64,000 nucleotides of DNA from an uncultured Gemmatimonadota bacterium (GTDB lineage: Bacteria > Gemmatimonadota > Gemmatimonadetes > Palauibacterales > Palauibacteraceae). This document shows positions 58,358 to 61,369 of this stretch, piece by piece. Positions within the stretch are counted from its first letter, which is position 1; the number at the start of each line of letters is the position of its first letter. The DNA lies in contig CAJWLK010000004.1 in the NCBI GenBank assembly GCA_913043255.1, positions 124,001 to 188,000 on the forward strand. Reading direction: 5' to 3'. Below the pieces are notes generated by a model. It ran no database searches, was not told where the DNA came from, and saw nothing but the letters and a program-made list of their open reading frames with translations. Both the position numbers and the translations under genes were made by a program.

Positions 58358-60214
58358 ATGTGTGGAATTGTAGGGTATTTAGGTGCCGATGAGGCGACGC
58401 CTCTCCTCTTACAGGGGCTGAGACGTCTAGAGTATCGGGGTTATGATTCTTCTGGTATCGCGGTACAAAATGGCGCGGGTCTCGAGATTAGAAAATCTGC
58501 TGGGAAGATTGTAAATCTTGAACGCCTCCTATCTGAAGCACCGATGTTGGGTACTACGGGAATCGCACACACGCGTTGGGCAACCCATGGGGTCCCCAAT
58601 TATACAAATGCGCACCCCCACACTAACCACGATGGTGATATTGCTCTCGTGCACAACGGGATCATTGAAAATTACGATGTGCTGAGTCAGAAACTGCTGG
58701 AACTCGGACATACGTTTCGGACTGAGACCGACTCTGAAGTTTTGACCCATCTGGTTGCTGAGTGCTTTGAAGGCAACCTGGAGCAGGCGGTGGCGGCAGC
58801 GCTAACTCAGGTCGAGGGTACATTTGGCATCGCGGTCATGAGCGCCAGGGACCCTAATAAAATTGTCGTGGCTCGCCGGTCTGCCCCGCTCCTGATCGGT
58901 CTGGGCGAGAACGGAGATTCTGCTATCTGGGTAGCCTCCGATGTTGCAGCCATTCTTGGGCACACGCGCCGCGTCATTTACCTGGATGACGATGAGATTG
59001 GAGTTCTCTCAAACGGCGGATATAAGACGCTCGATCTCAAGAAAATTGACGGGTCTAATGGCTGGGTCCCAATCGATAAGGAAATCAGCCATGTCGATTG
59101 GGACCTTGAGAGCATCGAGCGTGCGGGCTACCCACATTTCATGTTGAAGGAAATCCACGAGCAGCCTAATACCGTTCAAAATGCGACACGTGGACGTCTC
59201 TTAGAAGAGGAAGGGACAGCTCGGTTGGGTGGGCTCGATCAAATTGCGGACGAGATTGCGGCAGCTGAGCGAATCATTCTTGTCGGTTGTGGAACCAGCT
59301 GGCACGCTTCGTTGGTTGGCGAGTACATGATCGAAGAGATGGCGCGGATCCCGACTGAGGTCGAATACGCATCAGAGTTTCGTTATCGCAGCCCAATCAT
59401 CCCACCCAATACGTTAGTAGGTGGGATTTCACAGTCGGGAGAGACCGCTGACACTCTTGCGGCGATCCAAGAAGCAAAGCGTCTTGGTGCAAGCACTTTT
59501 GGTGTGGTCAACGTGGTGGGATCAACGCTTGCCCGTGAAACTGATGCGGGTGTTTATACGCACGCCGGTCCCGAGATTGGGGTCGCCTCGACAAAAGCGT
59601 TTGTAGCGCAGGTAACCGCACTTGCAGTGTTTGGGCTTATGCTGGCGCGTCGGCGAGGAATGAGCCTTGAAGAGGGTCAGGAAATCATCCACGCTCTCCA
59701 GGAGTTACCTCGACTTATGGATGAGGTGCTCAATACTGACTCCCACATTATCAGTATCGCGAGGGAATTCGGCGAGTCAAGTAATTTTCTGTATTTAGGG
59801 CGCGGACCGAATTTCCCGATTGCTCTGGAAGGCGCACTCAAGTTGAAGGAGATTAGTTATATCCATGCGGAAGGGTATCCGGCGGCTGAGATGAAGCATG
59901 GCCCGATCGCATTGATCGATGATGATATGCCCGTCGTTTTTGTCGCGCCGCAGGATGCAGTTTACAAAAAAGTTGTGCTCAATATCGACGAAGTGAAAAC
60001 ACGGGGCGGGCGGGTGATCGCTTTGGTGACTAATGGAGATGAAAGTTTGGACGATAAGGTGGATCATCTCATCCGCGTACCTAAAACGCTGCCACTTCTT
60101 CAACCGATACTCAACTCGGTCCCACTTCAGCTTTTGGCATACCACATTGCGGTCCTACGCAACTGCGACGTCGATCAGCCGCGCAATTTGGCCAAAAGCG
60201 TTACGGTGGAGTAG
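58358..60214 (+). CDS. glmS: Glucosamine-6-phosphate synthase (isomerising)
   Basis: Makes glucosamine-6-phosphate from fructose-6-phosphate and glutamine, the entry to cell-wall and LPS amino sugars. MCGIVGYLG gives the N-terminal Cys nucleophile; TGIAHTRWATHGVPN, HNGIIENY and TDSEVLTHL complete the glutaminase. The two SIS domains have VGCGTSWHASLVGEYM, SQSGETADTLAAI and GPNFPIALEGALKLKEISYIHAEG by segments. The C-terminus LAKSVTVE is the strict family ending. It is 618 residues. Two further copies of the last codons occur just downstream. Confidence 0.97.
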   Translation: MCGIVGYLGADEATPLLLQGLRRLEYRGYDSSGIAVQNGAGLEIRKSAGKIVNLERLLSEAPMLGTTGIAHTRWATHGVPNYTNAHPHTNHDGDIALVHNGIIENYDVLSQKLLELGHTFRTETDSEVLTHLVAECFEGNLEQAVAAALTQVEGTFGIAVMSARDPNKIVVARRSAPLLIGLGENGDSAIWVASDVAAILGHTRRVIYLDDDEIGVLSNGGYKTLDLKKIDGSNGWVPIDKEISHVDWDLESIERAGYPHFMLKEIHEQPNTVQNATRGRLLEEEGTARLGGLDQIADEIAAAERIILVGCGTSWHASLVGEYMIEEMARIPTEVEYASEFRYRSPIIPPNTLVGGISQSGETADTLAAIQEAKRLGASTFGVVNVVGSTLARETDAGVYTHAGPEIGVASTKAFVAQVTALAVFGLMLARRRGMSLEEGQEIIHALQELPRLMDEVLNTDSHIISIAREFGESSNFLYLGRGPNFPIALEGALKLKEISYIHAEGYPAAEMKHGPIALIDDDMPVVFVAPQDAVYKKVVLNIDEVKTRGGRVIALVTNGDESLDDKVDHLIRVPKTLPLLQPILNSVPLQLLAYHIAVLRNCDVDQPRNLAKSVTVE

Positions 60215-60418
60215 AAGGAAACAGTGATTTAAAAGGAGATGATTGTGGGGATAAATTTTTACGTTTGGTTGATCCTCACGATTGCAGTGACAGCATATGT
60301 ATGGGTTTTGATTGCAAGATGGGCGAAGAAAAAAGATGCAAAAGAACAATCCCTCCAAAACTAATTCACTGTTTTGTTCAAGTCAGTAACAGTGGAGTAA
60401 TCAAGAACGGTCGAGTAG
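60194..60418 (+). repeat. Three copies of the glmS 3' end, likely attachment-site scars
   Basis: The glmS terminus AAA AGC GTT ACG GTG GAG TAG (60194-60214, KSVTVE-stop) recurs as AAG TCA GTA ACA GTG GAG TAA (60380-60400, again KSVTVE-stop, with only synonymous changes) and directly after as TCA AGA ACG GTC GAG TAG (60401-60418, SRTVE-stop). The third also shares 14 of 15 bases with ACGGTGGAGTAGAAG at 60203-60217. Between copies one and two is a 39-codon gene. The pattern suggests integration of foreign DNA at the glmS 3' end. Confidence 0.65.
60245..60364 (+). CDS. 39-residue single-span membrane protein in a foreign patch
   Basis: Small protein with one hydrophobic span (FYVWLILTIAVTAYVWVLIA) and a basic, lysine-rich tail (RWAKKKDAKEQSLQN). 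The GTG at 60245 is chosen because AAAAGGAG lies six bases upstream; an ATG at 60239 would sit directly on that site. G+C is near 39% against over 50% in neighbouring glmS. Its stop is 15 bases before the second glmS-like tail. Function unknown; a small membrane accessory carried by a mobile segment is possible. Confidence 0.55.
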   Translation: MGINFYVWLILTIAVTAYVWVLIARWAKKKDAKEQSLQN

Positions 60419-60430
60419 AAGAAGGCTACT

Positions 60431-60760
60431 GTGGAAATGTTTATTTTATATCTCACAGCAGTGATAATTTCTTTGGCTTATTTGGCACTTGGCTTTGGGA
60501 TTAATAAAGAAAATGCCAAATATCTTCTTGCCGGTTACAACACCATGGGAGAGGAACGAAGAAAGAAGTTTAATATAGATAAATACCTGGCTTTTTTTAA
60601 GCTATTTTTTAAGAGATTGGCATTTTTCCCTGTTCCGTCATTGTTAATATGTATCGCAGCATTTGAATTTAATGTTGCAATAGTGGCGTGGTCCTTGGTT
60701 CAAATGTTGCCTTTTTTGTTTTTTGCGAAAAAATCAATCTGGAATCAGTGGGAATTGTGA
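60431..60760 (+). CDS. DUF3784-type membrane protein, horizontally acquired
   Basis: A 109-residue integral membrane protein with a span at about residues 3-23, the motif KYLLAGYNTMGEERRKKFN and two closely spaced spans at 66-101. That central motif is the DUF3784 signature, known mainly from Bacillota and Bacteroidota; function unknown. GTG at 60431 is used with AAGG five bases upstream; an ATG two codons later is possible. Hand counts give about 35% G+C, far below the flanks, so recent transfer is likely. A 7-bp ACGAAAT/ATTTCGT hairpin lies just after the stop at 60767-60784. Confidence 0.75.
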   Translation: MEMFILYLTAVIISLAYLALGFGINKENAKYLLAGYNTMGEERRKKFNIDKYLAFFKLFFKRLAFFPVPSLLICIAAFEFNVAIVAWSLVQMLPFLFFAKKSIWNQWEL

Positions 60761-60904
60761 CGACAAACGAAATCGCCATTTCGTAAGTGTCCAGTGGGGG
60801 GTTGAGCTACAAACGGGGCATGGTATCTTGGGCCCGGGCCTTAGGCGACACTGAGATGGAAGCCTGGCAGCGCAAATAACTGTCACTGAATGGGAGTGAA
60901 GAGC

Positions 60905-61369
60905 ATGCGGAGCGTCTACCTCCAGCTTTTGCGGAAGCAAGTTGGGAAGTACGCAGGTACTCTCCGAGATGTTGTTATTCTCGCTCCTGTCTATGGCATG
61001 TTGATGTTCACCCTAATGAAGGATCCGAGGTTGTCGCGTGAGCAGCGGCTGCTGGTGGACGCTGCTATCGCTTATCTCGTGAGTCCAGATGACGTGATTC
61101 CGGAGGACGAAGTCGGTTCTTATGGATATTTGGACGACGTTTTCTGTTGTGCGTACGTCGCGCAACAGCTTGGAGAGGAACTTGGTTGGGAGGTTGTGCA
61201 GGAACACTGGACAGGTGAGCAATCCGTGCTCGAAGTGTCGCGAGGGCTATTGGCGCGTGAACGAGAACTCCTTGGGGATTCTGGAGATGACATTCTTCGA
61301 TTCGCGGGGTTACTAGATACCCATCGGGAGTGGGATGGAAAACCAGAGCTCATTCTGGAGCGCGTCTGA
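60905..61369 (+). CDS. DUF1232 (YkvA-like) protein
   Basis: Small protein of the DUF1232/YkvA family, 154 residues. The family core AIAYLVSPDDVIPEDEVGSYGYLDD is complete at about residues 53-80. A hydrophobic segment (VVILAPVYGMLMFTLM) precedes it, possibly membrane associated. The ATG at 60905 is preferred because GGAGTG lies eight bases upstream; an ATG at 60890 has none. The function of the family is unknown. Base composition returns to the local average here, so it belongs to the host backbone. Confidence 0.8.
   Translation: MRSVYLQLLRKQVGKYAGTLRDVVILAPVYGMLMFTLMKDPRLSREQRLLVDAAIAYLVSPDDVIPEDEVGSYGYLDDVFCCAYVAQQLGEELGWEVVQEHWTGEQSVLEVSRGLLARERELLGDSGDDILRFAGLLDTHREWDGKPELILERV

Follow-up and report, generated by a model that had tools for sequence, protein, structure and literature searches.

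Tn7 inserts beyond glmS and does not copy the tail of the gene. The 3′ coding end of glmS is recognised by TnsD (PMC11406308), and the tycheposon in the paper on Candidatus Methylopumilus ends at the same gene (PMC10872708). The nearest published layout that we found to the one described below is the Methylopumilus island with its repeated tRNA-Lys ends (PMC10872708). Among open-licence papers, we found no description of cassette arrays built on the glmS tail, although such arrays may have been described elsewhere. The locus considered here lies behind glmS in a stretch of 64 kb from an uncultured gemmatimonadote (hereafter the window). It looks like a piece of an undescribed gene-shuttling system that operates in marine bacteria of several phyla.

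The host gene glmS (58358–60214; this and all further genes, cores and cassette ends of the window lie on the forward strand) is an open reading frame with Pfam SIS and GATase matches, and its 3′ end is the insertion site. Homologues with 70–82% identity occur in most same-genus genomes. The tail of the gene itself, core 1 (AAAAGCGTTACGGTGGAGTAG, 60194–60214), encodes K S V T V E and the stop. The original prediction described a foreign patch behind it with two further tails, both of which are present. The second, core 2 (AAGTCAGTAACAGTGGAGTAA, KSVTVE-stop, 60380–60400), is synonymous to the glmS end, and a degenerate pattern of the tail matched only these two places in the window and nothing in 100 shuffles. 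The serine codon of core 1 is AGC, the host type, whereas cassette cores carry TCN, and core 2 is of the cassette (SAR86-like) type. The third tail piece (ACGGTCGAGTAGAAG, 60407–60421) agrees with the glmS end at 14 of 15 positions, again with no match by chance; core 3 (ACGGTCGAGTAG, 60407–60418), 18 bp past core 2, has the sequence with which glmS ends in most same-genus relatives. The small membrane protein gene expected between the first two copies spans 60239–60364 and has 41 codons, or 39 if GTG at 60245 is the start, and is preceded by AAAGGAG. The gene that follows, at 60431–60760, encodes a DUF3784 small membrane protein (Pfam E=7e-10). G+C amounts to 37.2% in 60215–60394 and 35.5% in 60395–60760, whereas glmS has 52.7% and the DUF1232 gene 53.5%, close to the contrast of about 36% with about 53% that had been counted by hand. 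Host intergenic sequence with 55% G+C restarts at 60761–60889 and, from about 60793, aligns to the glmS–DUF1232 spacer of relatives. It leads to the DUF1232 gene (60890–61369), the host gene after glmS in insert-free relatives. The insert measures about 550 bp. The expectation that close relatives would lack it was borne out: the gap from glmS to the DUF1232 gene is about 150–180 bp in 14 of 16 same-genus genomes versus 675 bp here, and neither the DUF3784 gene nor the copy-2 site was found in any of the 16. No promoter above chance level was detected in the patch. A Tn7-like TGTGGG start at 60244 was discarded, having no matching end and no target duplication.

The patch probably consists of one complete cassette, one collapsed core and one truncated cassette, all belonging to a mobile cassette system at the glmS 3′ end. 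Cassette 1, which comprises 60214–60379 plus core 2, is the sole cassette in the window with both ends. Its left end (GAAGGAAACAGTGATTTAAA, 60214–60233) is the same as in the SAR86 loci L052 and L098 and the SAR202 locus L095; its right end (CTAATTCACTGTTTTGTTC, 60361–60379) is complementary to this left end, and the last 14 bases are identical to right ends in other host phyla. A weak homologue of the cassette 1 protein is encoded by the first ORF behind the Marinimicrobia junction (L097; 44% over 25 residues, E=9e-4). The DUF3784 gene appears to be the cargo of the second cassette, which is without a right end, host-like sequence being back by about 60793. The patch had been called worn, which holds for this DUF3784 part and for the third tail, which looks collapsed, but not for the first cassette, which has kept both ends. 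To judge from its sequence, core 3 is probably either the remnant of a collapsed cassette or a displaced host tail. Collapsed cores of similar appearance lie 24 bp from each other in L120 and L122, a left end there leading directly into the second core at CAGTGA; a displaced host tail is possible because the sequence of core 3 equals the glmS end of relatives. The host codon before the crossover region is kept (AGC in the window, ACC in SAR202) and the distal core carries TCA, which places the exchange within GTNACNGTNGARTAR.

Copy 2 forms part of a conserved site, TTAATTCACTGTTTTGTTC-AAGTCAGTNACNGTNGARTAR. When 84,980 species genomes were scanned for it, 22 loci matched, and 19 were judged convincing. 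Ten of these are labelled SAR86, and SAR202, Marinimicrobia, Nitrospina, Haliea, other Gammaproteobacteria, UBA3413 and the gemmatimonadote SP311 are also represented. Matches in L043 (Spirochaetia), L050 (Micrarchaeota) and L051 (Roseburia), without glmS and without continuation of the core, were set aside as chance, and L036 (G163) is a weak match with 3 mismatches. All or nearly all sites lie behind glmS wherever this gene is in view, and a search allowing up to 3 mismatches gave one or two sites per genome. The glmS end of SAR86 L094 (AAGTCAGTCACAGTGGAGTAA) matches core 2 at 20 of 21 bases, in agreement with the proposal that foreign DNA had entered at the glmS 3′ end with the tail of another species. 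Scans with the DUF3784 protein found no relatives in genome_contigs, viral_contigs or phages, and one 44% partial match in plasmids; the donor was therefore not reached through the cargo, and it was the common site that led to it. Within the phylum, DUF3784 occurs in 3 of 298 genomes, 2 of them above the cutoff. One is the gemmatimonadote G137, in which the homologue, 52% identical, likewise lies downstream of glmS; a stretch common to the window and the G137 locus, TCACTGTTTTGTTCAAGTCAGT, runs into the glmS tail in both. Four site patterns gave no matches in viral_contigs, and the 42-bp site gave chance-level matches only in phages and plasmids. Separately, many genomes of family f3 of the same class (G070, G105, G138, G171, G220, G232, G249, G388 and others) carry 2–4 glmS-type tails on different contigs, which suggests several glmS-like genes.

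In the wider set of loci, small cassettes often stand in an array behind glmS, each closing with a copy of the glmS tail. Reading outward from glmS, a core is followed by a left end, then usually by a ribosome-binding site and a small gene, and lastly by a right end and the next core. Over 40 loci totalling 540 kb, the core GTNACNGTNGARTAR was found, with one mismatch allowed, 165 times on the glmS strand downstream of this gene, twice on the opposite strand and not once in 155 kb upstream of glmS. One or more extra cores are present in each of the 34 loci that show the end of glmS, the loci having been picked for having sites. In 107 SAR86-family genomes, a set not picked in this way, the pattern WSNGTNACNGTNGARTAR gave 251 matches versus 19 for the reversed control. 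At least two cores are present in 73 of the 107 and at least three in 41, with a maximum of 10, and one strand holds all cores in 68 of the 73. Variation among internal cores is almost confined to the third codon positions of S-V-T-V-E-stop, though these cores lie outside genes; the tail consensus at cassette ends is A-N-TCN-GTN-ACN-GTN-GAR-TAR. Cassettes (115, median 580 bp) mostly hold a single small gene or a few of them, in forward orientation and without space for a promoter: main ORFs are forward in 93 of 104 cases, with a median start 35 bp past the left junction. Fifty array ORFs that were searched encode DUF805, HTH, T5orf172, HNH, TM2, sulfotransferase and other cargo, and three arrays had no Rfam matches. 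Two array genes, at L101:15809-16414 and L102:12169-12927, have a T5orf172/GIY-YIG-type domain and an HNH endonuclease domain and may represent nuclease cargo. A cassette with an HTH regulator and a membrane protein, encoded on the reverse strand, recurs both in SAR86 and in one gemmatimonadote, at L110 (G137 C3, about 185–1000 bp behind glmS), L101, L128 and L100; this reverse-strand pair probably has its own promoter, since most other cassettes are forward. A first junction at +37 in L124 proved to be an alignment-end artefact. What looks like a terminator after SAR86 glmS is not host sequence but part of a cassette occupying the first place in L093 and L094 and the second in L092.

Cassettes that are 97.6–99.7% identical occupy different positions in SAR86 genomes with glmS genes only about 68–82% identical. 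The first cassette of L114 and that at +1008 in L130 are 99.7% identical (glmS 70.2%), and there are five more such pairs, for instance the first cassette of L112 and that at +1899 in L130 (98.7%, glmS 69.3%) and those of L122 and L123 (98.4%, glmS 71.6%); in one pair the values are 94.2% and 67.8%. Across larger distances, a 42-codon cassette is 84% identical between SAR202 and the gammaproteobacterium PW2 (86% over the aligned part), and the HTH cassette of G137 is 79–83% identical to its SAR86 counterparts. Near-identical cassettes at differing positions behind diverged glmS genes imply that cassettes move between species. L093 and L094 have the same cassette directly behind glmS (83.9% identical there), and in L092 this cassette sits at +570, with one extra cassette before it; entry thus takes place next to glmS, and the idea that older material is pushed outward is realised in these SAR86 loci.

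Within a cassette, the left end is an inverted complement of the right end, and the sequences of the ends differ between cassettes, as in the pairs GTTTCGTTTGCAGAATTAA with TTATTCTGCAAACGAAAAC and GATAAAGGTGTCTA with TAGACACCTTTATA. Over 115 cassettes the own-end score averages 9.70 versus 5.94 for other pairs (z=18.6), and the best of 20,000 permutations reached 6.86. The complementarity persists in 39 dereplicated cassettes (z=11.0) and in the 28 cassettes without the common ACAG[TA]GA-type motif (p=5e-5), and ends from different cassettes that meet at one junction score at background level. The folded site has −8.4 kcal/mol, versus −4.8 kcal/mol with swapped ends, and the joined site of a circle is predicted to form a hairpin that carries the core on its tip. 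Pairing is weak or missing (score below 12) in 65 of the 115 cassettes, either because the ends have decayed, or because junctions between them were missed, or because pairing is not required.

We infer from these data that cassettes most likely move as circles, by site-specific recombination at the core. The circle would recombine inside the core with the glmS end, and the incoming core would restore the last glmS codons; as the cores vary at wobble positions only, GlmS would remain intact. The new cassette would then sit first behind glmS, older ones would move outward, and the cassettes would be read by transcription from glmS. Since the arms are conserved in pairing and not in sequence, they may be recognised as a folded strand, or their pairing may join cores for excision.

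Which enzyme might act on such a site was addressed in sixteen array-bearing genomes and in the survey of the 107 SAR86-family genomes. The SAR86-group array genomes have one or two PF00589 proteins each, and the pairs that were typed (three SAR86 genomes, G000 and G137) are XerC plus XerD by score. In these five array hosts XerC and XerD fall below the integron-integrase (IntI) cutoff, and the array hosts typed have no PF00589 protein beyond them. Serine resolvases (PF00239) and the Y1 transposase (PF01797) of IS200/IS605-type elements were absent from the 16 genomes, while controls were detected. Among the 50 array ORFs there is no integrase or transposase family. A 68-aa PF07508-like serine recombinase fragment in the Nitrospina array (L108:1627-1830) is too short to be the recombinase. 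In the SAR86 family, PF00589 matches are found in 103 of 107 genomes, mostly one or two; about eleven have three, the third tyrosine recombinase being present in G455, G479, G484, G493, G497, G514, G515, G531, G532, G544 and G547. As there is no dedicated recombinase among the genomes checked, the enzyme would lie outside the genome or be one of the host's. It would thus not reside in the element, and would either be supplied in trans by an outside agent or be a host enzyme; XerC and XerD are the sole tyrosine recombinases in most of these genomes. The chances seem to us about even that this is a cassette system of its own kind, with self-complementary ends, recombination of folded DNA at the glmS 3′ end by a putative trans-acting enzyme or XerC/XerD, and exchange of genes in the ocean among SAR86, SAR202, Marinimicrobia, Nitrospinota and Gemmatimonadota.

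Alternatively, no dedicated recombinase may be involved, if donor DNA carrying glmS and its array is taken up and joined by the host at the short core, and cassettes are removed by replication slippage aided by the arms. This would fit with the lack of a recombinase gene in the genomes checked, with an arm placement that lets pairing bring two direct cores together, and with the CAGTGA microhomology at which the collapsed cores of L120 and L122 are joined. However, even where phyla are crossed, both junctions lie inside the core, which is about 20 bp long, and the window and SAR202 alike have kept the host codon immediately before it, so that long glmS homology was not used; nor would one expect so strong a limitation to glmS, in one orientation in all hosts. 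We regard this route as unlikely.

Quite improbable, too, is a series of eroded islands, in which successive tyrosine-integrase elements entered at the glmS 3′ end, left attL/attR direct repeats behind and in every case lost the integrase, much as the original prediction had supposed for a single island. Direct repeats of a tail and a rebuilt gene end are what such integrases produce, and for Methylopumilus an additive island is reported in which tRNA-Lys 3′ ends are repeated (PMC10872708). Yet the tails are boundaries of separate cassettes, and the longer loci, in which an integrase or Tn7-like genes were to be looked for, are cassette arrays of a family that carries no integrase wherever it was examined. 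No integrase is encoded by the 50 array ORFs, nor, beyond two Xer proteins, by most of the 107 SAR86 genomes, and at a median of 580 bp the cassettes are too small ever to have held one. Moreover, such islands would not be expected to have self-complementary ends of differing sequence, and near-identical cassettes recur intact in differing orders.

The array might also be a true integron array without an integrase (CALIN) that happens to lie behind glmS. The array layout, the putatively promoterless small genes and the palindromic sites conserved in structure are as in integrons (PMC8876359). Against this, the column composition of about 120 internal junctions does not show the attC R boxes RYYYAAC and GTTRRRY: the junction bases are those of the glmS tail, with C in 99% at core position 4, the arms are variable and come from both cassette ends to flank the core, and no IntI was found in the genomes checked, all of which makes this explanation very doubtful. 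That the cassettes are passengers of Tn7-like transposons sent to glmS by TnsD, a relationship raised by the original prediction, is scarcely credible, for although the core tolerates change at exactly the synonymous positions and TnsD reads the glmS 3′ coding end (PMC11406308), the ends differ in sequence between cassettes, the junction lies inside the glmS tail and copies it, and no transposase domain occurs among the 50 array ORFs.

SAR86 are among the commonest bacteria of the surface ocean, have very small genomes and are mostly uncultured. Most sampled genomes hold the cassette system, and its single known address is behind glmS. For the question of how SAR86-like cells exchange genes, the system gives a concrete and testable locus, with cargo up to 99.7% identical between species whose glmS genes are 30% different. 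If its recombinase is found, this would be an integron-like system of separate evolution, with a recognition site tuned to a coding gene via synonymous positions.

Among the known systems, Tn7 and Tn7-like elements at attTn7 share the target, the glmS 3′ coding end, and the tolerance of synonymous change in it, but they are transposons of large size that carry tns genes, have fixed inverted ends and insert past the gene without copying its tail; here the 50 array ORFs include no transposase family and the ends differ. Tyrosine-integrase islands and tycheposons resemble the arrays in the direct repeats of the target 3′ end, in the rebuilding of the gene on insertion and in their marine hosts, but they encode a recombinase and are far larger, whereas the glmS cassettes contain no integrase gene. 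The fGI-2 island of Candidatus Methylopumilus (PMC10872708) also has the last 20 bp or so of a conserved gene repeated between small, variable insertions of mostly unknown genes; there, however, the target is a tRNA gene, the hosts are two related species and self-complementary ends were not reported. Like an additive flexible genomic island, the glmS array grows longer through insertions that recur in one place. Integrons differ in their integrase IntI and conserved attC R boxes; in the present arrays the platform is the glmS 3′ end, the core is the glmS tail with wobble-only variation, and arms from two cassette ends flank it. The system thus fails the integron's defining features, IntI and the attC boxes, and yet it works like an integron, with tandem, small, co-oriented and putatively promoterless cassettes, entry at the first position and sites conserved in structure more than in sequence.
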